From Coemansia sp. RSA 487 (lineage: Eukaryota; Kickxellomycota; Kickxellomycetes; Kickxellales; Kickxellaceae), in NCBI GenBank assembly GCA_027577595.1, contig JANBRJ010000077.1, forward strand, positions 21,011-85,010: a DNA stretch of 64,000 nucleotides, given 5' to 3'. The translations under genes were made by a program, and so were the position numbers. The notes under the pieces were generated by a model. The model was not told the origin of the DNA. It ran no database searches and saw nothing but the letters and a program-made list of their open reading frames with translations. Below are positions 9,527 through 42,741 of the stretch, piece by piece. Each line of letters opens with the position of its first letter. The stretch's first letter is position 1.

Positions 9527-9739
9527 TTAAAGTTCAATGCACTTTGACAAGTGCTCGAGATAATCGGCCTCATCCTTTACTTCGTGCGAGCATTTGGGGC
9601 AAATCCATAACGAGCGGCAGAGCACAAAAGATGGTAGGCTGCTTACATCGGCCGATGTCGTACAAAGGGATGCTGAGCTGTGATGGTGGTGGTGGTTGCG
9701 GCGACCTGCTTTAGTGTAATTCCGAAGCCCGATAATCAT
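9527..9739 (-). CDS. micro-protein with one NOA-type C2HC zinc finger (gene A)
   Basis: A 70-residue protein. The C-terminal third holds CPKC, twelve residues, H, three residues, C, and ends CIEL. CX2CX12HX3C is the spacing of the ubiquitin-binding fingers of NEMO and optineurin, and the CPKC start and Cys-Ile-Glu end fit that type. The N-terminus has a basic patch and a run of five His. A TATAAATA box lies about 195 bp upstream (9933-9941, minus strand) inside a C/T-rich leader, the same layout as genes B and C in this window. Family membership rests on spacing and residue pattern only; ubiquitin binding is inference. A C-terminal exon of a larger spliced gene is possible but no acceptor site stands out. 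Confidence 0.6.
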   Translation of the reverse strand: MIIGLRNYTKAGRRNHHHHHSSASLCTTSADVSSLPSFVLCRSLWICPKCSHEVKDEADYLEHLSKCIEL

Positions 9740-9932
9740 TTTTAGCAGATGATGTAAGAAAAAAAAGAACGGACGTTTGCTAACGGTAAATTTTTCTTGT
9801 CGCGTGGAACGAATAGGAAGAAAAGCAATTAAAGCGAATCAAAGTAAGTGTGGATATAATGATGGTTGTTATGTGAAGAGCGAAAAAAAAAATAAAGATA
9901 GGACGAAAGCTACAAAAGTGGGAGAGCCGAGG

Positions 9933-9941
9933 ATATTTATA
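9933..9941 (-). promoter_or_regulatory. TATA box of zinc-finger gene A
   Basis: TATAAATA on the minus strand about 195 bp before the ATG at 9739, within a C/T-rich leader. Confidence 0.45.
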
Positions 9942-11012
9942 CACGAGATGGAAAAAGGAAAGGAAAGGGTCCAAGCTATAGGCGTTAATAAGAACTTCAG
10001 GGTGATGACAGCAAAAGAAAGGGGGGTGTTGCTGGAGAGAAAGTATGAATGTGAAGATAAAAAGACTATGAGCAAACACCCGACAGAGCAAAATGCGGTT
10101 GGCACATCATTCTATCAAAATAGAGCAATCCTTTTTTTGTAACGTTATTATAATGATGTGCCGAAAAAAACAAGCACCGGACGGGGGGGAGGAACTGCAA
10201 GAAACAATCTGCAAAAGAGCGAATTACGACGCAAGAGAAAAATGCGGGAGCGAAAGCATAAAAGTAAGAATAAAAAACCGCAAACGAGGTAAAGAAAATC
10301 TTTTTTCCCCCTCTCGATTTGGAAGCTAATCCAAAAAAAATGCAACTCCCCAATTTTTTGGATGATGCTTTTTTAAACCAATTCCATGCGGCAATGCAAA
10401 TGAGTGTATTTTTGGTCGTTTGTTGCAAGCAAACCCAAAAGGAGAAAGACATTCAAGGAAAGCCTAATTTTTGACATGCGTACCAGATATGTGGAGAGTG
10501 GGGATTTTCTTTATTCTCAAGAGCCTTTTGTTTTTTTTTTTCTTGACACCATCGCTTGATGATTTTTATTTTCTGGAGCGGCAGTTGTGCAACTTTAACT
10601 GATCCGCTCAACATTCGCCCATGCATAAGCAATTATTACCGAGTCCCATCTGTGCTTGCAGCTACATAAATAAAAATGCACTGATAAAAAACAACCTTGT
10701 GTTTGGACCAAAGTGTCTTTCAAAGTGGGCTTCTCTATAAAGGCAAACATAGTATCAGCCAAACAGAGCTCGCCCACGCGTAGAAAAAAGGAGCAACAGG
10801 TGGGAATCCTTGGAACTTGAAACGATGATTGACATGTTTCCACTTTGAGAACCGTTTTTTCTCACTCCAAACCTTTCTTCTTGCGGCTGTCAATGATGGC
10901 GACAGCTTGCGCAATAATGTATTTCTTATTTTTCTCACTGGGGTATTGTGCAACAGCAGGTTTTGTCTTCTTGTACTTATGCATGCACGTATAATAGTAT
11001 TATTGCATTTGT

Positions 11013-11044
11013 TGTCGTCAATGTCGTCAATGTCGTCAATGTCG
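11013..11044 (+). repeat. 9-bp tandem repeat, 3.5 copies
   Basis: TGTCGTCAA is repeated head to tail three and a half times without mismatch. Confidence 0.9.
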
Positions 11045-13377
11045 CAATCCACCAGTACCAGTAAAAATTAATGTAAATATTCATTTCACATTCCCACATG
11101 TTGGCTAAAAGTTGTTTGGTTCGGTGGGCCTTCTTTTTTTATCACTTCCTCGGTGTTGGAGATCATGGCATTTCATCAAAGTTGGACAACAATGCAAGGA
11201 TACATTTTGACGCACAAATGTCTATCTCTTAATTTCATTTCCCGCTGCCGTCCCTACTTTTTTTAATTTGTCGGTCGGCAGAGCTTTTTCCAGTGGAAAA
11301 AAATAGAGTATCTGGAAATAGATTTTTATTAATGCGTGAGCTGAATGTAATTATCATTTTATAATATAATTATGCAGGATATCCTTTAGTGCCACAAAGG
11401 CTGATTTGATTACACGTAATCTCATGGTTGTTTTTTCTTTTGGCGATCAATACGGATTCCCTGACAGAGAAATCAACAAGGAGACTCCAAGATGCTTATG
11501 CACCCTACCATCATTGATAATTGTTGTTGGGGAGACATAAACGGAAGCAGAAAAGGAAAACGTGAAACCACCAGCAGCAACAATGCGTGAAGGATTGTCA
11601 GTGCGTTTTTTTTCAAACGCCGACTTTTTTGTTTCATGTTTCCAACTTGTCCATGTAGTAGAAATGTATATCAATGTATGGTATTCTCCTCCTCCCCAAC
11701 AAATATAAAGTGCATGCGCGTTAGAAACAAATGATATGCTCTAGCATATGCCGCTCTTTTTTGATTATGCCATTGGCTTGTTTTCTTTTCCAATAGAAAT
11801 CATCAAAGCTCCAGATGTAGCCTTGAATATCTAACGAGTAAAGTCTAAAATTAAATCAAAACAAGTTCTAGTTCAAATTCAAAAAATCGAGCGCAATGAT
11901 GGGTCTCGGTGCGTGCTACCCGTGGCATAAGGTTGGTTCCCAATGAGAATAAAGAGCAGCAGATTAGAGTGATTGCCAAGCTGTTTCGCCCCCGCCTCCG
12001 CTTGGCTTGGCTTGCATTTGAACCAGGTGTAAACAGAGAAAGCATATATTTATCTTGGTCTGAAATTTTCGTATGCACAATTTATTTAATTAGATATCGG
12101 ATTTTTGCCGCAAAGGAAGAAACAAAATGGATGTTCTTTCGGTCGGAGTTTGAACTTTCCCCCTTTTTCTATGGATCAAAAGTTCGCAGGCAATCAGGTT
12201 TTTTTTTATTTTTGAACAATCTCCCCTCTTTTCCGAGTCATTTCTAATCACAGAAAAGATAGATGGGGAACATCCAATGAGATTGGAAATCGGATTGCAC
12301 TTTTTCTGTTCCCCAATTCGTTTCTTTATAAAAAAAACGACGGAAACTCTCGCCGCTCCTGCTGCACATTTCAGTGAACAAGGTAATTATGCTGTTGCGT
12401 CTGTGCCTGTCCGATTTCGAACAACCTAGCTGTTTTATAAAGGAAGTGATGTGCATAGCAGGGGCGTAGTGTTTTTCAATCCTGTTTTTAGCGTCAGAGC
12501 CACACTGAAGAGAGGAAGAAAGAAAAATGTCCAATGGCTTTGTACCTGGTTTATAAAAAAATTTTCCTTTTGAACAGCTGATTGCCATTGCAGGTTTTTT
12601 GTTTCGGAGATACAAAAAAAAACAAAAACATAAAAGTCAACACCGCTTTTGTTTTCAGATTATAAAAACCAAACAATAACGGCACCTTTTCCTTTTTTCT
12701 GATACTTTGCGCTTTCCTCTTTTTTTGTTCCTTTGATAATATAAACAGTATAGAATAGACAATTACACACAAAAAGCCCTTTTCTCTTTTCTCTCCCCCA
12801 AAGGCAAGTAATCGCTCCCTTCTCCTCATGTTACTGAAGGGTATGGTCGAACCTATTGTTAGTTTAATGGTCCCTTCATTCTTGTTGATGTTTTTCTTTT
12901 CTGCTACGATCAATTTCCCGCCACCAAGTACCAAATTACCTTTATTCTTTCTCAAGCAGACAATATCCCCTATATTATATGCATCCGCTTCCGAAAATAT
13001 GATATCCTTTCCTCTCCTCTGCTGCTTGCGTTTATTTTATGTGCGTTTGCATTGTTCTCCTTTGTGCACCAGGAAATAAGAGCAGAAATCCTATGCACAA
13101 TATGCAAAAAAAAGAAGCTACATGGAGGCATCTAGGACATTATACCTGTTCAAATTGAACAATTTGGGAAGGAGGTTGCGGGAGTTTTTTTTTGTGGCAA
13201 ACATAATCAAAACAAGAAAAAGCAGGAAACATCCAGACAAAAGGGGAACGTCTTTTTAATATAATACTCCTCCTTTTCCTTGGGAGGGGGTGCTTCATTA
13301 CTTTACTATCATGTACCATTCCAATTGTTTTAAGCACGGACAAAAAACGGTACGATTCCAAGTCACTAACCTCTTAA

Positions 13378-13386
13378 TATATAAAC
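13378..13386 (+). promoter_or_regulatory. TATA box of zinc-finger gene B
   Basis: TATATAAAC about 195 bp before the ATG at 13580, inside a C/T-rich leader. The distance matches that in gene A. Confidence 0.45.
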
Positions 13387-13579
13387 TCTTTTCCTTTCCC
13401 CTTCTTTTTCTTTTGTTTAATCGCTATAGATTCCTTCCTTTACGCTATTCCCCCCTTTTAAATAACTGTACATAGCCGACATTTTGTTTTCCACAACCTA
13501 CACTATACAAGGACCTTCCCTCTCCCCTCCCCCCAAGAAAAATACTTTCCTTTTGTTGTAAAGATTTGCTTATTTGCAC

Positions 13580-13768
13580 ATGGGAACCAAAATACTAGTC
13601 GACCAGATCGCTCACACACATGCGGCACAAGCAACAAGTGGGAAATGGTTTTGTCCAAGACTGAACAAGCAAACATCGGACGGGGGATACCATTGCGACG
13701 TATGCGGTCAAAATTGGTCGGAATTGTCAGAGTTTCTTGCTCACCGCGCAGAATGCATGTTCACCTAA
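13580..13768 (+). CDS. micro-protein with one NOA-type C2HC zinc finger (gene B)
   Basis: A 62-residue protein. The C-terminus holds CDVC, twelve residues, H, three residues, C, then MFT and the stop. The finger has exactly the same CX2CX12HX3C spacing as gene A and sits at the same place, ending three residues before the stop. Between the metal ligands the hydrophobic Leu/Phe positions just before the His also agree with gene A. The N-terminal half is unrelated to gene A. I chose the ATG at 13580 because the slightly longer frame starts at a TTG. It is probably a paralogue of genes A and C; ubiquitin binding is a hypothesis from finger spacing. Confidence 0.6.
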   Translation: MGTKILVDQIAHTHAAQATSGKWFCPRLNKQTSDGGYHCDVCGQNWSELSEFLAHRAECMFT

Positions 13769-13985
13769 GCCGAAGGTAACTCTTGCTAGTAAAAGAGTTT
13801 ACGAAAATGTGGTTTTCTTATTTTAAAAATGTAAAACTCTAGAGTCTCTTTTCTCTTTTCTGATATATTAATTATGAAACACGAACGATATAACGTTTAA
13901 TGTAATTTTTTCCTCTCCTCCTCCCCCTTATTGTATTGTTTAGTGAGAGAGAGAAAAAAACTCCAAAAGAGAGATGTTTTATTAT

Positions 13986-15173
13986 TCAGCCTAAGAGTTG
14001 GGTGTAAAATACATTCCACACATCCACAATAGCTTCGAATACTGGACGTTTTATTGCATCCACCGAGATCTTTCCTACAATGCCATTAAATCGGCGTTGA
14101 TCTTCCGACAGATGCGTTTTGACAATGCGTGAGTGCTCTTCAGGCTGAGCAAGCAGATTTTGCCATTTGGTGGCCAACCGCGAAAGATGCGTATCGGAAG
14201 TAGCTAACGCACAAGGCATATGTATATATTCCTTGGGCAGACAGTCATTGAGCATTGCGTCCTGGCATCTTTTGTTGATACGCACCAGGGCGTTTAAATA
14301 CGAGTGACTGAACGTACGTATATCCGACTCGGCAGCTATCCTTGCCAGCACGGTACCGTGTATCGGTGAAAGGAACGATATCACCGGATCTATATCACTG
14401 TGTTCTAGGACACGCTTAATGAATTCATTTTTGACCAGCTGTCTAAACTCCGAAAGAGCGCTGTTGTTCCCATCATCTATGCACGCATACAGCATGGCGT
14501 TACTGAGAATCGAAGCAGATGTTTTGGTGGGTTGCGTTAATGAGAAAACCTGGTGCACAAGTGGAACAACCCAACTCAAAGCTGCATGTTTTGGATTTTG
14601 AAGTTTGTCAAGTAGCGCGGCTGTGACCGACGCTACGTATATTCCCTCTTCCTCAGAAGTGGCATCGTCTAGCAATGCGTATGCGTAGGAGGAATCTTTG
14701 TTGGAATTATGACTGGGCACCACTTGGGCCATCCGCTTTAGCTCACTAGCTTTTCGCCACGGATCGAGAGCCTGCTGTATTAAGCAAGCAGCGTTCTCCT
14801 CGGAACATCCCTGTGTTTTGACAGTATCTGCGTAATGGCGCAACCCAGCTATGCGAACTTCGTGTGGTGTATGGATATTGCAAATAACGTTTTGAAGCAG
14901 CCGTATTTGACACAAGTAACCATTATTATCTTCTAAAAGACAGTGCGCATCCTGGACAGGGCGATGCAGCTTTTCCTCGAATATCTGTTTGGCCTGGTCG
15001 AGAACCGTGCGCTGGTCGTTTTGATCCAGGGTGGGCCAAATGAGGTCGACGTGCTGGGTCCACGGAAGCGCTTCGGCGCTAAGGTAAGACGGAGACCAAG
15101 TGGATACTCTGGGCGATGCAGCTTCAGTGCTCAAATAAAAGACATGGGCGATCTGTGCGCTAAGCGTACCCAT
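13986..15173 (-). CDS. unrecognised, mainly helical protein of 395 residues
   Basis: A clean single-exon frame with coding-like composition. I start it at the second ATG (15173), which follows a purine run; an upstream in-frame ATG at 15206 would add 11 hydrophobic residues. The product looks almost wholly alpha-helical, with repeated Leu/Ala amphipathic segments such as those of HEAT/ARM-like solenoids. No transmembrane segment, signal peptide or catalytic motif is visible. It lies convergent to gene B. I do not recognise the family. Confidence 0.75.
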   Translation of the reverse strand: MGTLSAQIAHVFYLSTEAASPRVSTWSPSYLSAEALPWTQHVDLIWPTLDQNDQRTVLDQAKQIFEEKLHRPVQDAHCLLEDNNGYLCQIRLLQNVICNIHTPHEVRIAGLRHYADTVKTQGCSEENAACLIQQALDPWRKASELKRMAQVVPSHNSNKDSSYAYALLDDATSEEEGIYVASVTAALLDKLQNPKHAALSWVVPLVHQVFSLTQPTKTSASILSNAMLYACIDDGNNSALSEFRQLVKNEFIKRVLEHSDIDPVISFLSPIHGTVLARIAAESDIRTFSHSYLNALVRINKRCQDAMLNDCLPKEYIHMPCALATSDTHLSRLATKWQNLLAQPEEHSRIVKTHLSEDQRRFNGIVGKISVDAIKRPVFEAIVDVWNVFYTQLLG

Positions 15174-15427
15174 TTTTAACAAAAAAAAATTATAGAATGA
15201 GATCAAGAGTACTTTGTTTTATCTGGTGTATTTTTCTTTGCAATGCTAAAAATATACAGTGGTGAGTCGATGTTTTTTTTGCCTTTTTTTCAACAATGTG
15301 GAGCAAATGCTTTTACTGTGTAACCTTGATTAGTGTTTTTTGTGGGATTTTTCTAAAAACGACTTTTGCAGCTTTCTTTCCTTATCGTTTGTCTAGATTA
15401 CTATAAACTATACAAATTGTGACTTAG
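15174..15427. other. promoter region of the 395-residue gene
   Basis: AT-rich DNA upstream of the minus-strand gene; no other feature is seen. Confidence 0.4.
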
Positions 15428-15661
15428 CCATTATCTATTAGAAAACAAGTTATCGAGAAGAGAGGCCAATGTATTCATCTTCAAACAATAGCTGACAATT
15501 TAGGCTTGTCTAAGCAAGCTGTGTGAGCCTTGATCATGCATTTCGATGAATGTGAGACAATAGCGCCTAAGCCCAAGAGCGGCAGGAAACCAAATGCTGA
15601 TGAATACACAAGACAGCGCATTGTGAATACAGCAAAGAAGAATCTGAAGATAACGAACTAG
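15428..15661 (+). pseudogene. Tc1/mariner transposase N-terminus, decayed
   Basis: One frame reads as the DNA-binding half of a Tc1/mariner transposase: IADNLGLSKQAV (recognition helix region), then APKPKSGRKPN, which is the family's GRP(R)-type linker, then RQRIVNTAKKN. The frame carries a TGA right after the first helix-turn-helix and a TAG at 15659. No DDE catalytic domain follows, so this is a dead fragment. The pattern match is strong; the original element type within Tc1/mariner is not resolved. Confidence 0.75.
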
Positions 15662-15699
15662 ATCATTGTGATAGCGAGCTGGCTCTGCAGCTTGCAGAG

Positions 15700-15880
15700 C
15701 CAAATGGCAATATGACTGACTCACGTTGGGTCAATCATATTGTTGGGAAGCATATATCGTACGATTCCCAATTATCATAGCCCTTTCTTCATTTTTGTAT
15801 GGCTATATAATGGCTGTATTTTGTTATAAATAATAAATGTGAAGGGACTTCAGTTCCGTTTAGAAAATCCATTCTTGTAA
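15700..15880 (+). repeat. dispersed repeat R, copy 1
   Basis: This segment is related to 63175-63352: both contain an imperfect or perfect hairpin around GGTAAGCATA or GGGAAGCATA, then AATAAATG, then a GTTCCGT core. Both can also be read on the plus strand as the end of a frame with the pattern HI[VI]GKH followed by a stop at the same place. It directly follows the Tc1/mariner fragment, so it may be part of the same dead element or a second insertion. Confidence 0.5.
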
Positions 15881-16045
15881 CAAGTTCCCCCCAAGGAAAA
15901 ATGACAGAGTAGAGAAAAGTCCTTTTCTGCGTTTCTCCTCTTCCTTGCATTGTGGTTACTTTTTCTTATTATTTATAAAAACTACAAAAACTCATCTTAA
16001 CCGCAGCTTTTCCTTTTATTTCAACGCACGCACTTCCGATGGCGC

Positions 16046-17850
16046 ACAGCAAGGTGTATTGTCAAAGTTCCTTTGCAGGCCGTCAGTTGGGGCCGCAAGT
16101 ACAGGCCGCCACTTCGAAAGCTAGTCAAACTAACAAATTATAATACTCGCCATCCTTACAATTTTTCTTGGTGGATATTCATATATGAGCTTCGCGAGGA
16201 CGTTGACTCCAAGCTCGATCGGTATGTCTGCATTTCCTTTTTCAAAGAAGTCATCCTAAAAGGCAATAGCGGAAAGCCCCGGGCTGTCGGTAGTGCGTGG
16301 AAGAAAACAAAGAAACCCAAAGCCAAAGCTGAAGTGGAAAATGACCAGCCAGACACTACGGTGTTTCGAGCCCTTATAGCAAAACATTAAGATACATACA
16401 CACAGGCGGTACATATTAAGCAGCACAAACAACCATACATGGGGCATGTTGCAGGGTATGAAGCCCAAAAGATACATACTGCATCCCTTGTATCGATTAA
16501 AAACAGCCTCGGAAATCGACTACGCGGAGCCATTAATATGCTATATAGGTCGAAGGTGGAAGCACTTGCCAAGAAGAGCAAGCTCAGCTGTCGGCGCATC
16601 AGCTGATACTATCTGAGATACCCTAAGAGCCGAGATGTGGGGGCCAGCAGACAAGGCCAAGCAATGCATTGAGCGTGGCAAGAAGCTCGAAGCTGAGCTA
16701 GATGCACGCATTTATGAACAGGTCAAGGAACTTCAATCAGTACTATACATCTACGAAAATGATGCACCTAGTGAAAAGGATCTCTACTATGACATTAAGC
16801 ATGACCCTATCAAGCACATCAAAATCTTTTTTCTTCTGGCTCGGTTCTTCCAGAAAAACAAGTCCCACAGCTTCCAGTGCATGTCGCTTCGCACATAGTG
16901 GATTCCATGCCATATCCATATTGATAAGGCTAGCCTTTGTCAGTGGTTCCTTGGTGGCATCAAAGAGGAACAGAAGCTTGCGGATGTCCTTTGGGGTGAG
17001 GTCCTTGGCATAAGCTGCTGGGCGATCAAGAGCAAACAGGGTGGCAAGATGTTTTAAGGCTCAATTCAGACAGATTGTGTGTCAATCTCTATTTTCAAGA
17101 AGTGCAAGGCCAAGAAGAAAACCAACAACAGCACAGACCAGATTAGCGACATCAAGACACCTGACACTGCCAGTATTGCCAAGACCAAGACACCAAAGAC
17201 CAAGATTGGCAAGGGCAAAGGTGAATTTGAATTCGAGTATATTGGATTGATTGGCCAAGACAAGCCATGCGCAATGGGAGGTAACTGTGTGCTGATCGAC
17301 CCAGGTAGGAGAGACCTCCTATTCTGCATGCATGAGTACAGCTCCGTTGGAAATCCATGACTATTCCGGTTTACGCGCAATCACAAGGCCAAGCTGGCTT
17401 GCTCTACCAAGTTCTTGGAAATTGGCTTGCTGGCATGTGCAAGTACAGTCAGCCCATCCAGGGTGTAGGTATGCATAGGATGTTGCAAAAGCATGGGTCC
17501 AAAGTGTACCTGTTGGACGAATTCTGTACCTTGACTTTCTGCCCTGGTTGTTGCGAAGACAGGCTTGTGCATCCTGAAGAGCTGGTTCCAAACCCAAGGC
17601 CCTGCTCAAAAGAGAATAGGCATGAGTATGTTACTTGCCATGGACTCCTAATGTGCCAAAGCAAAAAATGTGTGAAATACATGGTAGATAACATGAAGCC
17701 TGCTAGCCATCTCGGGAAAGAGCCTGTTGCTCACTTTTGGAACAGAGATCTTGCTACTGTGTTGAATTTTAGGCATATCTTCCATAGTCTGCGCCAAACA
17801 CACAAGAGGCCTGAGCGTTTTAGGCGTGGTACCACTCTCTTCTACCAGCA
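16046..17850 (+). pseudogene. decayed Fanzor (eukaryotic TnpB-like RNA-guided nuclease family)
   Basis: The segment shows the Fanzor order in two frames. N-terminal IVKVPLQ is near 16060. Next come FQCMSLRT and IPCHIHID near 16865-16925, SIQTDCVSISI near 17060-17090 and the RuvC-I motif LIDPGRRDLL with Asp at 17298-17300. The RuvC-II LLDEF follows, with Glu at 17519-17521. Then come a zinc-ribbon CPGC and a second Cys pair near 17660-17670, and RuvC-III WNRD with Asp at 17747-17749. Two in-frame stops (16896, 17056) and a frameshift near 17357 break it. The catalytic triad is therefore present but the gene is not expressible as one protein. Fanzors are known cargo of several eukaryotic transposons, including Tc1/mariner, and a Tc1/mariner remnant lies 400 bp upstream. 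The outer limits of the element are not resolved. Confidence 0.8.
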
Positions 17851-18052
17851 AATAAGACCAAGAAGTCCGCGAGAGGCGCCAAGAGGTCTGCCAGTGGCTC
17901 TACACAGCCTAGAAAAAGCCCCGCTCAGCGGAATCGCAGCCCAGAATAAAGCTCCATTCAGCAACATCGCAGCAGCAGTCTTAACATCAGCCATATTTTT
18001 CCTGGGTGCTATAGCACTTTGGCTGCCCAGAACGGTTCTGGGCGGAAATTAA

Positions 18053-18344
18053 TGCCAGATACAAGACTTCGGTTGCCACACGTTGGTGGTAATCGGAGGT
18101 CATTGGTAGGTAAATTTCTCATGTTTTGCGATGCGTGTGTGCAATGTTTTATTTGGCTGTAAAAAAGGCTATGGATACACATAAATATTGTGATGGGAGG
18201 AAGGAAAAGTAATATCTTCTCGCCTGCGTTTGCGTTGTTTGTTACTTATTGAGCTTTTTTTACTAATCGCTTGTGTTTTCTCTCGTTCTGTTCTTTTGTA
18301 TCATATCCCTATCGTCTCGGTTCTCATCGTGGTTGTTTCTCTCT
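18053..18344. other. 3' flank of xanthine dehydrogenase
   Basis: Pyrimidine- and AT-rich spacer between the Fanzor remnant and the stop of the minus-strand gene. Nothing else is seen. Confidence 0.4.
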
Positions 18345-21300: not shown

Positions 21301-22649
21301 CCTGCAATCGTGGCGACGTTGCGGATCTGGTTGCCTGCAAAGTACCTGAGGTTGTCGCGCATTGCCGCCAAGCTCTGCGTACGTTGGCGCCCGTGTTTGG
21401 AAATCAGTTGGTGCAGCGTGTGCTCAAAGTGGGCCAGCGTTATGTTGGCGCCAAACGAGACGCGGTCGGGGTGCTCGGCTATTTGGCGCAGTTCAGGGAT
21501 ATCGTTGACGTATACCTGGGTGGCAAACTTGGACCGCTTCAGCTTGATTTCCACTCCCACTTCGCTGTTCCCGGCAACCAGCTTGGCATCAGGGTGCTTC
21601 TTGAGGATTGCCAGAAGTCCAGGGAGCGTCAAGGGCCGGTAGAACCGCTGGCACCATGATGTCTTGGGGTTCTTTGCAACGATCTCCAAAGGCTGCATTT
21701 GCGGCTCATCCTCGGTGGTCTTGCCCTTGGTGTAGCGGATCAGGAACGGTGGGAAAATCAGCTCTTGCGTTGGATCGTACACTTGGAACTGCGAGATCAC
21801 TTCCGCCTTTTCGATCTCCGCTAGGTTGTCCGTGCTACTCGATTTGCAGCATGCTCCGTTGGCTTTACTGCATGGGGCCTCTTCAACCACAGTCAGACTG
21901 TCCTCGCTACTCGATCTGCAGCACGTCCCATTGGCTTTGCCACCACCACAGCAACCGTTTGCGCCATTGGTGGCGGTAAACGGGACCACCGGATCGTGCA
22001 CTGCAAATTGTCCCTCATCAGACTTCTTCTTTTGCAAGCGGCAGCAGCCATCGATTCCGCATCCCTCCTTCTCGCTAGCATCACCAGCCGCCTTGACGCT
22101 GCCATCGTCAGGGTTAACCACGGTGCCGCGCTTCCACGCCTGGTCCGCAAACGTTTTGGCCGCATCCAGGATAGGCCTATACCCAGTGCACCTGCACAGA
22201 TTTCCGTCAAAGCACTCCTCTATCTCGCGCTCAGTCGGGTTCGGTTTGTTGCGCAACAACGTGTACAGCGACATGACGAACCCAGGAGTACAGAACCCGC
22301 ACTGTGACCCGTGCAGCAGGGCAATACGTTCTTGCACGGGATGTGGGTTACTTGTGGTTCCTAGTCCTTCCACGGTTATTACGTGCTTTCCGTCAACTGT
22401 ATACAGAGGACATAGGCATGCGTTGACCGATGTATGGATAATCGACGCTTCGATCGCGTCGTACCGGGACACCATCACTGTGCATGCGCCGCATCCGCCT
22501 TCACCGCAGCCTAGCTTGGTTCCCGTTAGTCCGATGCTGCGCAAGTATTGAAGGAGCGTCAGATCCAGGTCAGGCGACTCCACGGTCACTCGCTTGCCGT
22601 TCAGGTAGAACAGGATACTGGTTCCGAAAGAACTATTAAAAGTAGCCAT
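18345..22649 (-). CDS. XDH: xanthine dehydrogenase (molybdenum hydroxylase)
   Basis: A single-exon gene for 1434 residues that oxidises hypoxanthine and xanthine to uric acid in purine catabolism. Domains in order: [2Fe-2S] plant-type ferredoxin (C48, C53, C56, C78); second [2Fe-2S] domain (C117, C120, C152, C154); an unusual Cys-rich linker (about 195-300); FAD domain; two molybdopterin domains. Seen in the latter: FGGKESRS, the substrate-binding arginine stretch NTAFRSFGG, GTEMGQGLHTKM, and the catalytic glutamate context KGIGEPPLFLG near the C-terminus. All cofactor regions are present, so it should be functional. It is about 80-100 residues longer than animal XDH, explained by the linker. 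The linker holds ten Cys (197-268), with a duplicated ANGxCC[RK]SSSxDxL unit. It stands alone, with no visible purine-pathway neighbours. Confidence 0.95.
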   Translation of the reverse strand: MATFNSSFGTSILFYLNGKRVTVESPDLDLTLLQYLRSIGLTGTKLGCGEGGCGACTVMVSRYDAIEASIIHTSVNACLCPLYTVDGKHVITVEGLGTTSNPHPVQERIALLHGSQCGFCTPGFVMSLYTLLRNKPNPTEREIEECFDGNLCRCTGYRPILDAAKTFADQAWKRGTVVNPDDGSVKAAGDASEKEGCGIDGCCRLQKKKSDEGQFAVHDPVVPFTATNGANGCCGGGKANGTCCRSSSEDSLTVVEEAPCSKANGACCKSSSTDNLAEIEKAEVISQFQVYDPTQELIFPPFLIRYTKGKTTEDEPQMQPLEIVAKNPKTSWCQRFYRPLTLPGLLAILKKHPDAKLVAGNSEVGVEIKLKRSKFATQVYVNDIPELRQIAEHPDRVSFGANITLAHFEHTLHQLISKHGRQRTQSLAAMRDNLRYFAGNQIRNVATIAGNIATASPISDLNPVFMAAGASVTLVSQDGSKRVVPMCDFFLGYRRTAMQPGEVLLDISVPFNPPGECVRAFKQAKRKDDDIAIVTCGLRVRVNIETRKVEDAAFAYGGMAPTTVLAKGAIAAALGGTWGDRLLLDRILGACQEEMRLDFTVPGGMAEYRTALTTSFLFKFWAITCSELQIACGESEFAAEMLKDDEDRVLSKGQQEYASVADRAIVGKGVQHLSALKQVTGEARYIDDMPAVHGELFMALVMSERAHAKLLGIDCTEALATDGVHRVLTSHDVPGENKWNIFHDEEILPVDEVHYVGQPIALVLAESQKLAQDAARLVKVEYDDLPSILGVREAAHKGAWFDEVRQLQNGDVDTAFQEADHVFEGESYCGPQEHFYLETMGSITVPKGEGGEFDVYASTQNPTEAQMVCAEVLGVSASRIVCHVKRMGGGFGGKESRSVLISAFTTLGAYHTNKSVRLILDRDEDMQISGQRHPFYGQWKVGVSRTGQLLALRARIFSNGGFSHDLSIGVLERAVSHIDNCYRIPNTDIVGRVCRTNTQSNTAFRSFGGCQGMILLESMLCEVADKLHVPVEQLRETNMYKVGDVTPFSQPLDSDWNVPLMWAQMKEKGSFAERRAQVDAFNAQSRYRKRGLSLLPTKFGISFGVKHLNQGMALVHVYMDGSVLVAHGGTEMGQGLHTKMAMVAAETLDLPLDSIFISETATNTAANTSPTAASASSDLNGYAVYNACKELADRLRPYRESMAGEPFKKIAKVAYLDRCNLTCAGHYKVPDIGFNWQKNEGLLYFYFTQGVALAEVELDTLTGAHTTRRVDIIMDVGKSLNKAIDVGQIEGAFAQGQGWATTEEFLYFPKNGRLFTQGPGNYKIPSAMDIPRDFRVTLLEGVDTSMLKTIFSSKGIGEPPLFLGSSVFFALRDAVLAARKHAPGLAAGQELPTLHLEAPATPEILRLACEDELVEMARIPSALKEGRVPFTIRI

Positions 22650-22962
22650 ACTAAGTATAAAAAAGGTAAAGTTGAATAAATATGTGGTTGAGGTGTTTCA
22701 AACTATGAGAATAAAAGTAGCTTTTCTCTTGAAGCGAAACTATTCTGGGGAGGACGATGTTTATATATGAAAGACAGATTGTACTCTTTTTTTTACAAGT
22801 AAGATTAGATGAGAGATGAAAGAGAAGGAAAGCGCGGGAAATAAAGGCAAGGTGAAAGAGAGAAAGCCTTGCAGCAACAAAACGGGAGCTTCGCATTGTT
22901 CCGTACAACAAGAGCTGCATTGTCTGCAGATTGGGCAGTGTATGATTTGCTTCTTTGAACGG
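22650..22962. other. promoter region of xanthine dehydrogenase
   Basis: AT-rich with C/T runs on the minus strand, upstream of the XDH start at 22649. No gene is seen. Confidence 0.4.
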
Positions 22963-23358
22963 TCACATGCAACCAGCGAGAAGATGAAAGCTTCTTTTTG
23001 AAGCTGTTTTAACCAATAACCTAATAGCTAACTGTTGTCTACATAAATAACTAAATTCCCCGAAAACGGAACAATATGACGGGTTGTTCGCCAATTTGGT
23101 CCTACAATTCGGCTGAGCTGCATACAACCTTTTGCGGTTCACAAAATAAGCCGAGTCGCTTTGATTGTCCAAAAACTGAACAAATTCACTTTCTTCCAGC
23201 ACTGAAAAATACACTTGCCTTTTTGATGGCATTATTTGTGCATTTGCTAAAGTATTCTTTATCGCCTTTATTAGAATATTCAGCTTGGAAATATCTGCTA
23301 TGCAATTTTCCCACTCCAAAGCTACTTTAACGTCACATTGTATATTACACTTTAACAT
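22963..23358 (-). CDS. small protein of a local four-member family (member 4)
   Basis: I start at the ATG at 23358, about 50 bp after a TATAAAAA box (23408-23416 on the minus strand), giving 131 residues. The first ~65 residues follow the family pattern seen in the three neighbours: short beta-like strand, DVKVALEW, KLNILIKA and a late VYFSV strand. The C-terminal half is Cys-containing and has no counterpart in the others. There is no signal peptide or membrane segment, and it is not a family I know. Gene status rests on the shared pattern, open frame and promoter signal. Confidence 0.5.
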   Translation of the reverse strand: MLKCNIQCDVKVALEWENCIADISKLNILIKAIKNTLANAQIMPSKRQVYFSVLEESEFVQFLDNQSDSAYFVNRKRLYAAQPNCRTKLANNPSYCSVFGEFSYLCRQQLAIRLLVKTASKRSFHLLAGCM

Positions 23359-23470
23359 ATTTCTTGCATGAAAACGGCAGGAAAAAGCCCAGTGCACCAA
23401 ATGGTTTTTTTTATATCAATATGATCGAGCTTGAATACAAATCCCACTACAGTCCACAAGTTGACTAGTT

Positions 23471-23802
23471 TCATTTACCAGAAGGTTTGTTATGCTTCTT
23501 TTTACTAATCTTAAAATACCCAGTGTCGCTGATATAAACCCACGTTGCCTTCTGGATATCCTTATCTATGCACTTGCTGAACACCTTTATTGCGTTCCTG
23601 TCTTCACTCTAATTTGCGATTTAGAAATGAACTTATATATAGTAGCGTCTTCCCATTCGATGGCTGCTTTGACTCCATTAACATCACAGTCATGGTTTAG
23701 TGTAAGCACTCCCAAGTACCTGCCCCCAGGATCAGGCATTTTCACCTTCTTGCGAGGGCTTTTGGTGGCAGAATCCAATAAAAGAGGAGGAACATAGCTC
23801 AT
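23471..23802 (-). pseudogene. small family protein (member 3), one frameshift
   Basis: The frame opens at the ATG at 23802, about 90 bp after a TATAAAAG box (23893-23900). It runs 71 codons to a stop near 23587. One base off, the reading continues as AIKVFSKCIDKD and then VYISDTGYFKISKK, which matches member 2 position for position, to a stop at 23471. A single-base indel near 23590-23596 therefore splits it. The restored family pattern is VKAAIEW, IRVKTG, KC and VYIS..G.FKI. It may be a recent pseudogene, or the indel may be a sequencing error. Confidence 0.55.
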
Positions 23803-25125
23803 GAGGAAAATTGTTAAACTCTTAATTGATAAACTATGAAAAGAAACTATTGCAAATCTTGGGAAATGGCAAGGGCACGTTGTTTCTTGTTGCTTTTATA
23901 CCATTTTCTAAATAAGCTTCAAGTGAACATTTGGCAATTGTTTTTTCTTGGTCCTCCATTTGTTGTTTCATAAGTCTTGGTTTTGCATATTTCTTGCGAT
24001 ATGAAAATACAAAACAGCAGCAAAAAAGGAAAAACGCCCAATATTTACACAAAGAAATGTATGCCGCATTATGAAAAAGGAATGGCAAACGACTGGGAAC
24101 TTCTTTCAACAAGAAATAAATTTACTACAAAGGAAAAATTATACACTGTGGGCAGCAAGCAATGGATATAGGCCAGTGGTAAATGGAATTGCATTTTCTC
24201 CAATTTATCCACATTGTTTCTAGCGTATATGTGAGCCTTCTATACACTGGAGCAATGCTTTAGCGGAAGAGACTGGTAGGTACAAGTACTATATCTGTGA
24301 CACTTTTGCCATGGACCCGGGATAAAATAACACAGAGTAATTATTCGATATCTTGTTTCTCAAACTAGATATAAGAAGAAAAAATACTTGTCTTCCTCAG
24401 AAGGCAATGACCCTCGGGAAACGCTGTCCTTATATGTAACAGGGGGCCGTTACATATAGTGGACTATTGCATTGTTAGCGCTTAGTGGCTGTGCAAACCC
24501 ATTGTCATGGGTTTGCCTCGCATACGACACTCACACTAGCGTGACAATATCAGTGCAAACTTTTTAACTTTTCTTTTTTCTTGTCTTAATATACATAAGG
24601 AAATATAAGGGGGAGACAATGTTTTTTACTTTCAGAAAAAACACAAGCCAGCCATCGTCACCATATTCAGATGTGTGCTTTTTTTAATAAAGAGGTCTTT
24701 ATTTATTCAACCTCTCCATACTGTATTTGGTTGCAGATAGACTTTGGATCTAGCTTGTTTTTTCCGTTTTGTCTAAGGCTCACTTAATTTCAGCTGTAAA
24801 GGCACATAGTTAAATTCCTGGGCCAGCTGTGCTTTTTTTCGGTTGTTGTTTCCCATCGTTTCGGTTCTCGCAACATATCGCACACATTGTTTGCAACTAT
24901 GCTGTTTGTTGTCTTTTCTCTGAACCGGAACCACGATCAAAAACAATATTTGCAATGCTTACACACCAATTGGCTGCTTTGATCATTGTGTTGCAAGTTC
25001 AAACGCGATTAGCATTTAAGTAAAAAAATAATCTCCCCACTATAGTGGACTTTGCACATGGACTTTGTGTGATTTAGAAATCTTGACTAGTTATTGTTGG
25101 TTTTCTAATAAAATAACTCTATTGA
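23803..25125. other. intergenic, contains a solo LTR
   Basis: AT-rich. Apart from the LTR at 24296-24546 and the TATA box of member 3, no feature is supported. A 92-codon minus-strand frame at 23834-24112 overlaps that promoter and lacks support. Confidence 0.5.
24296..24546 (+). mobile_element. solo LTR with perfect 5-bp target duplication
   Basis: A 251 bp unit beginning TGTGACAC and ending GCGTGACA (TG...CA). It is flanked by ATATC on both sides (24291-24295 and 24547-24551). Internal landmarks (CATGGACCC, GATAAAATAACACAGAGTAAT, GGCAATGACCC and a CAAACCCAT..ATGGGTTTG-type dyad) recur in the copies near 59 and 62 kb. TG/CA ends plus a 5-bp duplication are the hallmark of an LTR retrotransposon that has recombined out. 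No internal region is left. Confidence 0.9.
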
Positions 25126-25377
25126 CTAATCTAGCCTGACAATTTTAAGATATCTTTTTTTGCCAATGTAGACATGCGTAGCCTGTCCGATATATTCTCT
25201 ACTACAGTCCTTGAGATTCTTTTTCCCCTTGTTTGTACGAATCGTAATATCCAGTTTCCAAACTGGTTCTTCTATTTTTGCCACCCATCCCAGGGCAACC
25301 TTGACGTCGTCTTTAGCACAGTTGCATTTTAGCTTTAGCTCCCCTAAACATGTATATGCTGCTTTTGTTTTTGGCAT
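25126..25377 (-). CDS. small basic protein of a local four-member family (member 1)
   Basis: An intact 83-residue frame with its ATG about 110 bp after a TTTATAAA box (25487-25494). Family pattern: alternating strand LKLKC, DVKVALGW, KLDITIRT, a Lys-rich turn, one Cys, then THVYIGKKRYLKIV at the end. The charge is strongly basic. It looks like a compact mostly-beta domain of about 75 residues. No signal peptide, so probably intracellular. Unrecognised function. It shares orientation and pattern with members 2-4. Confidence 0.6.
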   Translation of the reverse strand: MPKTKAAYTCLGELKLKCNCAKDDVKVALGWVAKIEEPVWKLDITIRTNKGKKNLKDCSREYIGQATHVYIGKKRYLKIVRLD

Positions 25378-26008
25378 TTTCTAACAAACTACTAATGTCA
25401 AGTAGAAGGCGAAAAAGGTGTAAAATTGGTTTCAATGAAAAATAAAAAATTCCGACAATCGAGGTGCTCGTTGTTGTTTATAAACCTTTCATTTTCTTGA
25501 TAACCTCAGCAATTCCCAGTCAACAACACTCCTCTTTCTACTGTGTTTCATTTGAAATTATAAAGCCTGACTTATCGCTGCCATTTACTTTTTGCATAGA
25601 TCAAGGCAATCGAATATACTGATTTACGACTTTCCTTTTTTGTTTAAAGGTTTGACAAAAAGGGAAAAATGTGAGGAAGAGATATTAATAAAGACTTTAA
25701 AGCAGATGAAAGATTTCATACAATCTAAAGAGCTCTGAACGGTGGAATTTGCTGAAACCTAAAGAAAATCGCAAAACCACTGGTATTGCAATGGTCTGTT
25801 CTATTTCCATACTATATAATAGGTATTGGAAAAATGTAGATGAAAAGCTAGACAGCCATTTAGCATTACATATTTCACGACCAGCACTATTCTTCTTGAT
25901 CAGGCAAATAATGCAAAACGTAACTGCTGGCTTCGTTTGCATCCACACTCTAGATAGTTGTTTTTTTAAAACATCTGCGTTTGTTAATGAACATAATATC
26001 CATATTTT

Positions 26009-26305
26009 TCATAATCTAGAGGTTGGCGCGTTTCTTTTAATCTTAAAAAGCCCAATTCCACTGATGTAGACATTCATCACCTTATCTGCTTCCTCGTCTG
26101 TACACTTTTTCAGCTCCTTTATTGCTTCTCCTGTGCGTATCCGAATTCTGAGCTTGGTAGTAGACCGCCTTATCTTATTATTCAGTGCCAAAGCGAGTTT
26201 GACACCAGCTATCCTACTGTGATTTTTTAATTCAAGTATCTCCAAGTTCCCATTTTTACGCTTGTTTATTTTCACTTTTCGAGGTATGTTGACAGCGATA
26301 GACAT
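26009..26305 (-). CDS. small basic protein of a local four-member family (member 2)
   Basis: I start at the ATG at 26305, about 110 bp after TATAAAC (26413-26419), giving 98 residues; the longer frame would begin upstream of the TATA box. Family pattern: LEILELK, GVKLALAL, TTKLRIRIRTG, AIKELKKC, then VMNVYISGIGLFKIK. The N-terminal 20 residues are Lys-rich. It is the most complete and typical member of the cluster. No known domain recognised. Confidence 0.6.
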   Translation of the reverse strand: MSIAVNIPRKVKINKRKNGNLEILELKNHSRIAGVKLALALNNKIRRSTTKLRIRIRTGEAIKELKKCTDEEADKVMNVYISGIGLFKIKRNAPTSRL

Positions 26306-27088
26306 TATAGCACTTGATTGGTGATAGAAATGTGGAATGTAAAAGGTACTTTGAATCTTGTTTATTGAGAATGATAAGAGCCTTTCCAACTTTGGAGACA
26401 CTCTATTGCTAGGTTTATACATCTTGTAAAGGGTTACAGTGCACACTTGGGGACATTTGCTTTATACATTAGTAAAGTCACATCGCATCACTATCGTCGA
26501 TGACACAGACGTTTTCAAGCATTGGTTGGAACAGCTGACCACAATTTCCAATGCTTTCTCCAACCCTTAGAGAAAGTAAATGTGCGAACGGGTAGTGGAC
26601 AAGGACAGATATTACCAGGACTTTTCTTTGACGGGAGGGGGTGCTAAAAGGGTAGAACGTTCATGAGACGGTTGTTTTTATAGATTGTGTTGGCTGTGAT
26701 AATTGATGATTTAGTAATCAGGCATAGCTTTAAGAAATAACAGGTTTGGGCTTTATTTTTCAAAGAAGGGAGGTTTGTGAAAATATATACCACACTTAAT
26801 GATCGACATTTGTTTGTTTTCCAAACTGGAACAAACTTGTCCACCAAAGTAATTGCTTCCCCAGTTTATTCTTTGTAACTTACAAAGGAACTATGTGAAG
26901 CTTTGCATTTCCGCAGCATACCATCAATTCTTGCGTTCTTGTGTTGGTTTTAAGAGGACATGGAAATCAGGCAAGTTTTTTTTTCGTTTCCTTTTCTCTT
27001 GCATTAGAAGCTTTCTTTCTTCCACCCCTTTCCATCAACGCTCTTGTTTTCTTCTTTCATCGTTTAACTTGCTCGCTGGAAAAACAAG
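26306..27088. other. intergenic
   Basis: The promoter of member 2 on the minus strand and a C/T-rich leader for the plus-strand membrane protein starting at 27089. No coding frame is supported. Confidence 0.5.
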
Positions 27089-29047
27089 ATGGCCACCAGT
27101 GCTAACTGTGGCACAATTTTCAAGCGCATCGTTAAAGCGGTGTACTTGTTGTACTCGCTGCTAACTGTTGCAAGCTTCCTTGTTGGTTACATTTTGATCT
27201 ACAGATATTTGGAGGCGCCGCCAGCAACGCTCAACCGCCAAAGCCCGCCACCGGAAAGCAAAGACCCTACGCTCTACCGTCTGTCGTGGCAAGAGACCAA
27301 AGCCGAATACGAAGCAAAAGTGTATGCCTCGCAGATTGAACTTGTTAACAAGAACAATGCTGAACAGTTCTTTAAGACAGCGCAAGAGCTGTGGCACATA
27401 GAACCGCATACTCTGGATGACAGATACCCGACATACAAGACCCGCGTCAAAGTCGATGTACCTCAAGATGCGCTGGAGAAGCAGACGAATGCTCTGTATG
27501 CGCATATTTTCATCCAAAAGAAAGGAGGGTTTGCTCCGTATCCTAATGTAACGGACCCGTTCATGGTGCACGCGTACACGAAGCTAGTGAAGTGGAAGCC
27601 CATTCATCCGACACCCATTGACTCTGCTATCTCGTTTATCAAGTTTGAGAGCAACATCGCAGTGGACTACGAACTCGTTGCGACAAAGGGCGTTTCTTGG
27701 GCCATGGTGCTGGAAAACCATGCGTTCACAAAGAAAGAGCTGCCGTTTGGAATCATCATCCCCAACAGTCCAAGCAAAAACAAGGAGGGAAAGACAGCGT
27801 ATACATACAACCCGCCGTTGCTGTCAAACATGTTTACCAAGAACAGATGGCCCGAAAATAAGCTTTCCTTGCAGACCGCACGGACCATTGATGTGGCGCT
27901 GGAGCTGCAAGGGATAAAGCTCCGGTGGATCAAGCCCAAGATGCTGGCGCTGCTGATGATGCCGGCGGCAAACAACCTGACGATGACTCCGATCACTGTG
28001 CCTGTTGCCGACCCCAAGCATCCGGACAGGGAAAAGAAGATGACGGTTTTCAAGCCGGTGCTCTACATTGGCAACGAGTCGCTTGTGGACTTTGTTGGCT
28101 CGCGTGGGATCCACGTGTATCTCCGCGCGGCGCTGATCCTGACCATGATGTACTTGGTGCAACTGAGTATTCTATACATTGGCATATGTTTCCTTATGGC
28201 GCCAAAGCGCAGGTGGGTTGGGTTTTCGCGCACGGCCTTTGTCATTTGCATCACCATTTACGGCCTGTCAATCCCTACTGTAGCGGCTAGCGTCGGTATT
28301 ATATCTGCTGTGCTCAACCCCCTCAACGCACTCATCGCCTGCCTTGTGCTTGTGATGCTTGATATCCCGAGGGACCCGAGGAAATGGAGCGAGTACTGGA
28401 AGAACCGCCATGTTTTGCAAAACCAGCAGCCGCCGGCGGGGTACCAGCTTCTGGAGGACACTGAGCTGGACGAGGCACCACTATCCGCCTCTAGCACCAG
28501 TACCGAAAGGAATCGCCGCATGTCAGCAAGCAATGACGACGAATTCGAGCTGGGCGACGAAGGTGCAGCCACCTCCACAACAGCATCATTGCAGGTGCCA
28601 GTCAAGGTGGATCCGCACGAACATATCACAAACATCCGCAAGAGCATCGACCAAGTGGCCATGCGGTGGTTTGTGCTTTCAGTGGGGCCGATACTGGTTC
28701 TGTCGTCGCTTTTGACGCTGTTCAGCAGTAAGCCAATGTCGCTGGGAAGCGTGCTGGCATTCGTGGTGCAGTTGTGTGTCGTTGTTAGCAACGTCTATGG
28801 AGCTGTTTGGCTTGTACCGCAGATCCTCGTCAACAGGCGTGCACAGTCAGGGTCGCTGCTTCCGCCTGCATTCCATATTTGCAGTGTTATCAATGGTGTG
28901 CTGATCGTGGCGCTGATGTGTACTTTGCATCTTTCCAGTGTTTTGGTGAGCCCGCTGAAGCTGTTTTACTGGGTGGCATGGGTGTGCAATCTCATCGCTG
29001 TAGGGCAGTGGATAAAGTACCGCCGCCTCTCACAGCAGCTCGAGTGA
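27089..29047 (+). CDS. CLPTM1-like multipass membrane protein
   Basis: A single-exon gene for 652 residues. An N-terminal membrane segment (about 18-41) is followed by a large, probably lumenal domain with the CLPTM1-type stretch LYAHIFIQKKGG and proline-rich turns. Next come about six or seven hydrophobic segments (near 345-368, 383-428, 524-545, 554-580, 594-620 and 625-642). Between the third and fourth lies a polar, acidic loop (about 450-510). The late PQILVNRRAQSGSLLPPAF resembles the conserved PQLxxNxKxxSxxxLP region of CLPTM1. Known relatives are ER/Golgi membrane proteins involved in receptor trafficking or lipid scrambling. The similarity is moderate; a divergent branch of the family is the best guess. 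Confidence 0.6.
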   Translation: MATSANCGTIFKRIVKAVYLLYSLLTVASFLVGYILIYRYLEAPPATLNRQSPPPESKDPTLYRLSWQETKAEYEAKVYASQIELVNKNNAEQFFKTAQELWHIEPHTLDDRYPTYKTRVKVDVPQDALEKQTNALYAHIFIQKKGGFAPYPNVTDPFMVHAYTKLVKWKPIHPTPIDSAISFIKFESNIAVDYELVATKGVSWAMVLENHAFTKKELPFGIIIPNSPSKNKEGKTAYTYNPPLLSNMFTKNRWPENKLSLQTARTIDVALELQGIKLRWIKPKMLALLMMPAANNLTMTPITVPVADPKHPDREKKMTVFKPVLYIGNESLVDFVGSRGIHVYLRAALILTMMYLVQLSILYIGICFLMAPKRRWVGFSRTAFVICITIYGLSIPTVAASVGIISAVLNPLNALIACLVLVMLDIPRDPRKWSEYWKNRHVLQNQQPPAGYQLLEDTELDEAPLSASSTSTERNRRMSASNDDEFELGDEGAATSTTASLQVPVKVDPHEHITNIRKSIDQVAMRWFVLSVGPILVLSSLLTLFSSKPMSLGSVLAFVVQLCVVVSNVYGAVWLVPQILVNRRAQSGSLLPPAFHICSVINGVLIVALMCTLHLSSVLVSPLKLFYWVAWVCNLIAVGQWIKYRRLSQQLE

Positions 29048-29946
29048 ACGTTTTTTTCTTTTCTTTCTTTCCTGACAGTTGGCAAATATATTTGTTTGTT
29101 TACTTTTTTCATTTGGCACCACGCTTCATGTTGCGTTCAGAGAGGGTTTTCTCATGCAAGCGATATTGCTTGCTCATTTTTGACAGATATTACTGCATTT
29201 TTGAAACTGGGCAAGCGGGGTGACGATGCCCTGGCGCAATGACCAATTTTTTTTACTGCACTCATGTATCAGGGAAACAATGGCGATATATGCCGCGTGA
29301 CGTCTTCTTATCCTTGTTGTGAATGGTGGAAAAAAGCAAATGCCTCGCCACCTTTTTTTTTATCACGCAACAATCTTGTCTTGTTTTGACTGACAAATGC
29401 ATTCGCCTTTTATTCTCCTTTTGGTTTGTCTTCCAAAACGCACCGACCAATGGATTTCGGGGAGATATTGGCTGCAGTGCAAAAATATATCGCAGCAGGT
29501 GGGAAAATGCGAAAAGCTGATTTGTCAGAAAGGCCGCGCTTATCGTCTTAATGTGGTGGGAAAAAGCGAACCAACTAAAACATCCGAAAGGCCCAGCTTT
29601 TGGATTTTATCCTATCTCTTTGGCTGGTGCAACCATTATGCACATGCAGTGCGTGTGCCAGCTTGTGTGCTCCATTCCATTTACTTCGTTTTTTGTCCTG
29701 TGCACTCTCATGCGTATTATTGCAAATGAGTTTTTTTTTACAAGCTGCGGGCACCGGAAAATTGAAAAATCCCGACTTTCGTCCATCTCCCAATTTCTCG
29801 TATAAAAGTCACCAAAGCTCAATCCTTCTTTTTTCCCCCTTGTTTCGTGCATTTTATTCGATTGGATCCTTTTCTTCTTCCTTTTTCTTCGTTATCAAAG
29901 CAAAACAAACGATTATTATTATTATCATTACTGAATTATTGAAGCC
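29048..29946. other. intergenic with leader of zinc-finger gene C
   Basis: Low-complexity AT/CT-rich DNA. A TATAAAAG at 29801-29808 lies about 140 bp before the ATG of gene C. An (ATT)n run lies just before that ATG. No other gene is supported. Confidence 0.5.
29801..29808 (+). promoter_or_regulatory. TATA box of zinc-finger gene C
   Basis: TATAAAAG about 140 bp upstream of the ATG at 29947, in a CTCGTATAAAAG context. Gene A has CTCGTGTATAAATA. Confidence 0.5.
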
Positions 29947-30267
29947 ATGACCTTCTCTTCATCTAGCTCACTCTCATACCAACCACATATTAGCCGTCGC
30001 CGGTCGTCCGTGGTTTCAAGCAATGGTGGTCTTTCGCCCATCGACACAACAACACCCGCACTTGCGCTTGGAGGCATGACCTCGCCTTCGCCAAGAAACC
30101 CTTCTCCGTCCCTCGAGTCGCCTACAGCATATGGCGCTTCGGCTATTGACTACACGTATGTTTGCCAGAAGTGCGGGTTCGGTACAGAATTACTGAGCGT
30201 CTACATGCCACACACTGCTTATCCTTGCGGTGAGCAGCCAATGGAATACGCTTGGGGCAAACTGTGA
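29947..30267 (+). CDS. micro-protein with NOA-like C2HC zinc finger (gene C)
   Basis: A 106-residue protein. The first 65 residues are Ser/Pro/Thr-rich and probably disordered. Then come VCQKCGFG and twelve residues after the second Cys, His, four residues, Cys. The spacing is CX2CX12HX4C, one residue longer at the last loop than genes A and B. The C-terminal tail continues 14 residues beyond the last Cys. The ATG has a good context (GCCATGA) and follows a TATA box. Probably a paralogue of genes A and B with the finger displaced inward. Metal binding is likely from the ligand set; target is unknown. Confidence 0.6.
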   Translation: MTFSSSSSLSYQPHISRRRSSVVSSNGGLSPIDTTTPALALGGMTSPSPRNPSPSLESPTAYGASAIDYTYVCQKCGFGTELLSVYMPHTAYPCGEQPMEYAWGKL

Positions 30268-41785: not shown

Positions 41786-41995
41786 ATGAGAGTAGCATCT
41801 GCTGGTATCCTTGCCTTTGCCTTTGTGGCAGTTACTATTTCCGCTGCACCTGCTGGCATACCTAGCCGCTCTATAGATCACAAGAACCCGTCAGGCGGTG
41901 TGTCTCACTCGCAAAATCCTCACCATACTAAGCCTGAAGAAAAGAAGCACCACAACAAGAATAAGGAGGGCGGCAAGTCCGGTTCTCATCACTAG
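41786..41995 (+). CDS. small secreted His/Lys-rich protein
   Basis: A 69-residue product with a clear signal peptide: MRVASAGILAF and an Ala-rich core, cleavage near SAAPA. The mature part is only about 50 residues, with clustered His and Lys (HHTKPEEKKHHNKNKE, ending GSHH). This could bind metals or anionic surfaces. The longer frame upstream starts at a non-ATG and is ignored. A TATAAAG lies about 170 bp upstream. Function unknown. Confidence 0.65.
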   Translation: MRVASAGILAFAFVAVTISAAPAGIPSRSIDHKNPSGGVSHSQNPHHTKPEEKKHHNKNKEGGKSGSHH

Positions 41996-42396: not shown

Positions 42397-42741
42397 ATGG
42401 CTCGCATTATCTCTGTCGCTTCTATTGCCGCTCTCCTCGCTTTCGGAGCTTTCTCATCGCCAGTTGTCGAATCTAGGGCATGTGCTCATTCTAACCACGT
42501 TCATGTAGCCAGACGTGGCTACGGCGCTGGCTTTGTACCTGGCTACGGCATTGGCTATGGAGCTGGTTACGGTGGCGGATTTGGCTTTGGCTTCCCATTT
42601 GCATCGAGCTTTACCAACGCACTCAACACCAACTTTAACGCAGCCAGCTTCAACGATGACACTCTTTATGTCAACAACAAGGATGCAAATACTGTCAACA
42701 GCAACCTCAACACCTTTACCAACGCCAACACTATTGTATAA
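42397..42741 (+). CDS. small secreted Gly/Tyr-rich then Asn-rich protein
   Basis: 114 residues. Signal peptide 1-20 or so (ALLAFGAFSS, cleavage near SSPVVES). Then a short His-containing segment ending ARR, a likely Kex2 cut at 39-40. A Gly/Tyr/Phe-rich block of GYG repeats (about 41-68) is followed by an Asn/Thr/Ser-rich tail. Such composition suits a structural or surface peptide. The Asn-rich tail (NTNFNAAS, NNKDANTVNSN) recalls the tail of the secreted protein at 54069. Start chosen at the ATG after a TATA box and an A-rich leader. Confidence 0.7.
   Translation: MARIISVASIAALLAFGAFSSPVVESRACAHSNHVHVARRGYGAGFVPGYGIGYGAGYGGGFGFGFPFASSFTNALNTNFNAASFNDDTLYVNNKDANTVNSNLNTFTNANTIV

Follow-up and report, generated by a model that had tools for sequence, protein, structure and literature searches.

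Analysis of a 64,000-nucleotide stretch of Coemansia sp. RSA 487 DNA (C77:21011-85010, hereafter the window) led us to favour, at somewhat better than even confidence, the view that two short open reading frames (ORFs), A and B, are intronless micro-protein genes driven by TATA boxes, that their products carry C2HC docking fingers, and that B belongs to a two-copy family together with D, an ORF on another contig (C79). The ORFs, their motif and the similarity of D were observed directly, and the fold was predicted. The genome searched comprised 17,787,467 bases in 184 contigs. A previous sequence-only reading had taken A, B and a third ORF of the window, C, for a single family of micro-proteins with a finger of the NEMO/optineurin kind. 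The four ORFs and the fingers of A, B and C are as follows.

9527 to 9739, minus strand: candidate gene A, 70 amino acids, terminal C2HC finger CPKCSHEVKDEADYLEHLSKC-IEL-stop.
9539 to 9601, minus strand: CX2CX12HX3C finger of A, identified by motif scan.
13580 to 13768, plus strand: candidate gene B, 62 amino acids, terminal C2HC finger CDVCGQNWSELSEFLAHRAEC-MFT-stop, with its apparent diverged copy D on contig C79.
13694 to 13756, plus strand: CX2CX12HX3C finger of B, identified by motif scan and structure model.
29947 to 30267, plus strand: candidate gene C, 106 amino acids, Ser/Pro-rich, with CX2CX12HX4C near its end.
30163 to 30228, plus strand: CX2CX12HX4C finger of C, identified by motif scan, with one of two core hydrophobic positions filled.
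C79:62876-63043, minus strand: D, an ORF of 56 amino acids with a B-type finger that ends three residues before the stop.

The positions and sizes of A, B and C, the finger spacings and the three residues that follow the last cysteine in A and B were all as the sequence-only reading had given them; in C that cysteine is followed by 12 residues. The chance level of the motif was estimated from the six frames of the window against 60 dinucleotide shuffles in 2-kb blocks. CX2CX12HX3C occurred twice in the window (A and B) against a shuffle mean of 0.18, a single occurrence being seen in 11 of 60 shuffles and two in none. CX2CX12HX4C occurred once (C) against a mean of 0.15, and the broad class CX2-4CX12HX3-5[HC] five times against 1.95. 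A wider sample of 264 kb, made up of the window and 20 further 10-kb stretches, including one picked because it contained D, held five CX2CX12HX3C stretches: A, B, D and two others, which had no ATG before the finger and were without the core hydrophobic residues. The same sample held two CX2CX12HX4-5C stretches, C and one of these two others, and none of the form CX2CX12HX3-5H. The generic C2HC (CCHC) ligand pattern CX2CX12HX3-5C is present in A, B, C and D. The predicted finger of C is weaker than those of A and B, because it fills just one of positions 8 and 14, the usual sites of hydrophobic core residues, position 8 being T; A, B and D have both.

AlphaFold2, run on A and B with an alignment of three sequences, gave a confident beta-beta-alpha fold over the finger only and a tail of low confidence. 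The predicted local distance difference test score (pLDDT) was below 50 over residues 1-41 of A and 1-29 of B, and from residue 41 on the block means of A were 76, 90 and 86. Both micro-proteins are drawn as a predicted N-terminal tail without order, followed at the C-terminus by a single C2HC zinc finger of beta-beta-alpha form, which presumably folds around one zinc. A comparison of predicted structures with NEMO-type fingers had been proposed from the sequence: the second Foldseek match of A was the NEMO finger (root-mean-square deviation, rmsd, 0.8; 35% identity; E 0.62), but the best was a MYST finger (rmsd 0.4; 42% identity). The best 50 of 215 matches of B were mixed, with many C2H2 fingers and NEMO at rank 14. 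The best E-value for A was 0.62, and neither model had a match at E 0.001.

The genome search with B returned one other match, D (E 0.13 for the whole protein, 0.042 for the finger alone), and the reciprocal search with D found B (0.098 and 0.039). Alignment of the two fingers, tail included, revealed six identical residues out of 20 non-ligand positions, with a score reached by none of 20,000 shuffles, and the shared form C-x2-C-G-x6-S-E-[FY]-L-x-H-[RK]-A-x-C-[MF]-F-x-stop. The corresponding scores were reached by 5.7% of 20,000 shuffles for A-B and 9.5% for A-D; finger boundaries for these and for the later NEMO, optineurin and MOZ comparisons were fixed after the data had been seen. Given these figures, B and D look like diverged copies forming a two-copy family in this genome, and A, which has the same architecture, is possibly kin. 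The shuffle test covered A, B and D. Searches of the genome with A or with C, whole or finger alone, returned only the query. The micro-protein family proposed from the sequence survives in part: these small ORFs, each probably a gene, end in a C2HC finger, and one of them, B, has a relative within the genome, but the A-B and A-D shuffle figures and the failure of C to find anything except itself do not support a single family comprising A, B and C. Viral contigs searched for relatives with an alignment of B, D and A yielded 53 stretches that fit the pattern, none of them confirmed. In the strict sense, according to PMC6003976, a microProtein consists of one domain and has a larger protein of several domains as a relative. 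No larger parent of A, B or D was found in the genome up to E 10, in a single-sequence search that is weak for a finger of 21 residues. Beside D lies a RING-finger gene (zf-C3HC4, 36.3 bits; L003 604-1395, plus strand), convergent with it, tail to tail and about 100 bp apart.

Upstream of A, B and C the following putative promoter elements were found.

9934 to 9941, minus strand: TATAAATA, putative TATA box of A, with no ATG between the box and the start codon.
13378 to 13385, plus strand: TATATAAA, putative TATA box of B, from the TATAWA search.
29801 to 29806, plus strand: TATAAA, putative TATA box of C, from the TATAWA search.

A TATA-like site is present upstream of each of the three, as noted from the sequence, at 146-202 bp rather than 140-195 bp. 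Distances from the start of TATAWA to the ATG were 202 bp in A, 200/202 in B, 146 in C and 132 in D, with no intervening ATG in any. The C/T-rich leader was borne out, with pyrimidine contents between TATAWA and ATG of 0.68, 0.69 and 0.64 in A, B and C. A TATAWA at 100-220 bp followed by an ATG-free interval was seen in nine of 95 short ORFs, namely all three candidates and six of 92 others, and four of 14 other gene starts had TATAWA 50-300 bp upstream. Two further small ORFs on the plus strand, 41786-41995 and 42397-42741, have a TATAWA, an ATG-free interval and secreted-like starts, and in our own reading may be real genes.

Introns were scanned for as a CTRAY/TTRAY branch site with a pyrimidine-rich acceptor, in a stretch that began 600 bp upstream of each of the four ORFs and ran to 300 bp beyond it. 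No such combination was found near any of them in the 4.5 kb scanned; the intron of the Ras gene of the window was recovered as a control, and the window rate of 0.60 per kb of strand predicts about 2.7 in that length. That the fingers are last exons of larger, unrelated genes had been named in the sequence-only reading as a finding that would refute it. There is no acceptor signal near A-D in the stretch scanned, but for A, whose frame is open for 33 codons upstream of the ATG, the exclusion of this explanation is less than complete. The TATA-like site followed by an ATG-free stretch, without a splice acceptor signal, makes it probable that A and B are genuine genes of a single exon, and both would be expressed. 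C is probably a gene too, coding for a separate small protein.

Codon use was compared with a null set of 89 short ORFs, none of them within the 16 regions presumed to be coding. Synonymous codon choice was matched or beaten by 3.4% of these nulls for A, 3.4% for C and 2.2% for D, D being scored with the codon table of the window in spite of its location on another contig; the full codon score of C was reached by 4.5%. The 16 regions, which served for both training and masking, were picked by eye and several score inside the null range, so the codon test is weak.

Several observations count against A and B as TATA-driven, intronless genes and against the B-D family. The synonymous codon choice of B was reached by 21% of the 89 nulls, which makes it indistinguishable from null ORFs, and full codon scores were reached by 15% of nulls for A, 17% for B and 18% for D. 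The 100-220 bp range for the TATA box was picked after the candidates had been seen, and the E-values linking B and D are not significant by themselves. The TATA-like site of B is flanked by CACTAAC (13364-13370) and by a TAG ending at 13429 with a pyrimidine tract, so that an intron in the leader could end here instead, with a branch-to-acceptor distance beyond that scanned. Since the frame of B is open for only six codons above the ATG (68 against 62), such an intron would add no protein. On balance this mixed evidence appears to speak for gene status. It is unlikely that some or all of the candidates are ORFs arisen by chance or the decaying ends of genes: the null-like codon use of B, the full score of A and the two chance motif matches besides D in the 200 kb sampled would fit this, but the B-D pair with its matching non-ligand residues, the terminal layout common to the candidates and the ATG-free stretch after the TATA-like site speak against it.

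If A and B are such genes, the finger helix would most likely dock on a partner protein while the tail stays flexible, ubiquitin being one candidate partner among several. It is quite unlikely that these are instead nucleic-acid-binding mini-fingers, degenerate C2H2 relatives acting on DNA or RNA as small regulators. Most of the 39 phmmer matches of B in the PDB are C2H2 fingers, often DNA-binding, as are many of its best fold matches; however, matches to multi-finger proteins sum weak repeats and their single-stretch scores are low, and a lone finger is seldom sufficient for specific DNA binding, which favours docking on protein. We consider it very unlikely that the fingers read ubiquitin in the manner of NEMO/optineurin or UBZ fingers, serving on ubiquitin chains as adaptors or as free competitors, for all the resemblances of A to NEMO, which include the second-best fold match and the fourth phmmer match of its finger (E 0.09).

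The shuffle comparisons with NEMO, optineurin (OPTN) and MOZ were 18 in number and are uncorrected. Over 18 positions the fractions were 0.0033 for A-NEMO, 0.013 for A-OPTN, 0.002 for D-OPTN and 0.035 for B-OPTN; over the inner 15 positions they were 0.156, 0.34, 0.0013 and 0.017, respectively. The likeness of A to NEMO thus comes mostly from CPKC and from the residue that follows the final Cys. D and B keep some resemblance to optineurin over the inner positions, which counts for the sequence-only reading, but resemble NEMO in neither case (B 0.19, D 0.12). No finger reached 0.05 against MOZ over 18 positions, and A gave 0.051 over the inner ones. The NEMO finger model (PF18414, zf_C2H2_10; cut-off 25.6 bits) scored the NEMO control at 64.1 bits and listed none of A, B and D at E-values up to 10, most weak matches being dropped by the filters of HMMER; over the whole genome it gave a single match of 16.7 bits, below the cut-off and elsewhere than A, B and D. 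With the zf_UBZ model (PF18439) finger A reached 17.6 bits, short of the cut-off of 25.6, while B and D were not listed, and the eight matches of this model in a search of the whole genome included none over the cut-off and none that was A, B or D. NCBIfam models gave B two weak matches far under cut-off and A, C and D none. The NEMO/optineurin identity assigned to the fingers is accordingly not upheld: spacing and CPKC are an insufficient basis for ubiquitin binding, a ubiquitin partner being possible. The name NOA-type finger is moreover a misnomer. NOA, the NEMO-optineurin-ABIN domain, is a coiled coil. For CEP55, PMC9737832 names NOA and the ubiquitin-binding zinc finger as two different domains. 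A and B, whose predictions comprise nothing more than a tail of low confidence and a finger, offer no NOA/UBAN domain.

The window also carries genes assigned by Pfam to an AA9 enzyme, a CLPTM1-like protein and a WD40 protein, and, read by eye, the Ras protein gene with its intron, a content that fits a fungal origin. Plus-strand positions 17336-18052 and the open frames at about 15500-17360 are apparently decayed pieces; the end reads CPGC ... WNRDLATVLNFRHIF and resembles, as we take it, the tails of transposon proteins of the TnpB/Fanzor type or of a related one, the last piece having no Pfam match. A run of related-looking ORFs at 45943-49713 (plus strand) is in our own reading possibly a tandem F-box/LRR-like family; the one ORF tested, 48517-49710, had no Pfam match.

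Two diverged copies of a finger gene of fewer than 70 residues in one fungal genome would offer a concrete case of a class that, according to PMC7394265, annotation often misses. A-D were not described among the matches listed in literature searches on fungal finger microproteins, NEMO-like, NOA and UBZ fingers and CX2CX12HX3C. If ubiquitin reading were true, these proteins would amount to free-standing ubiquitin readers of very small size; we know of no comparable ones, no search aimed at such proteins having been made.

The C2HC finger of MYST acetyltransferases (PF17772; MOZ, 1m36) has the identical CX2CX12HX3C, because of which this spacing is not diagnostic of ubiquitin-binding fingers and alone should not be taken as ubiquitin binding; the MYST finger, however, is part of a large enzyme, and PF17772 scores A at 16.5 bits against a cut-off of 28.8. 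Sgf11 (PF08209), part of the SAGA deubiquitinase module, likewise has its zinc finger encoded in a short ORF, but finger A reaches 15 bits against a cut-off of 26.4, and A is unlikely to be Sgf11, whose clear match lies elsewhere (C5:313038-313133, 52.3 bits, 69-residue open frame). The C-terminal finger of NEMO and optineurin shares with A and B the CX2CX12HX3C spacing, the beta-beta-alpha fold and the position at the extreme C-terminus, and with A the CPKC start. NEMO, however, has 419 amino acids with further domains before the finger, according to PMC11854354, whereas here the finger sits on a protein of 56-70 amino acids. UBZ2/UBZ4 fingers (FAAP20, Rad18, WRNIP) share the CCHC ligands and the fold. 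The UBZ2 motif of FAAP20, DxHxAxCL in PMC4267625, reads LEHLSKCI in A, LAHRAECM in B and LLHKAHCF in D, so that the alanine is kept in B and D but the acid is replaced by Leu in all three. It is highly improbable, though conceivable, that B and D, possibly together with A, act as minimal ubiquitin readers standing on their own and consisting of little beyond one UBZ2-like finger with its acid replaced; the central alanine and, behind the last Cys, a large hydrophobic residue would then have been kept, and the C-terminal aromatic could fold onto ubiquitin like the terminal Trp of FAAP20.

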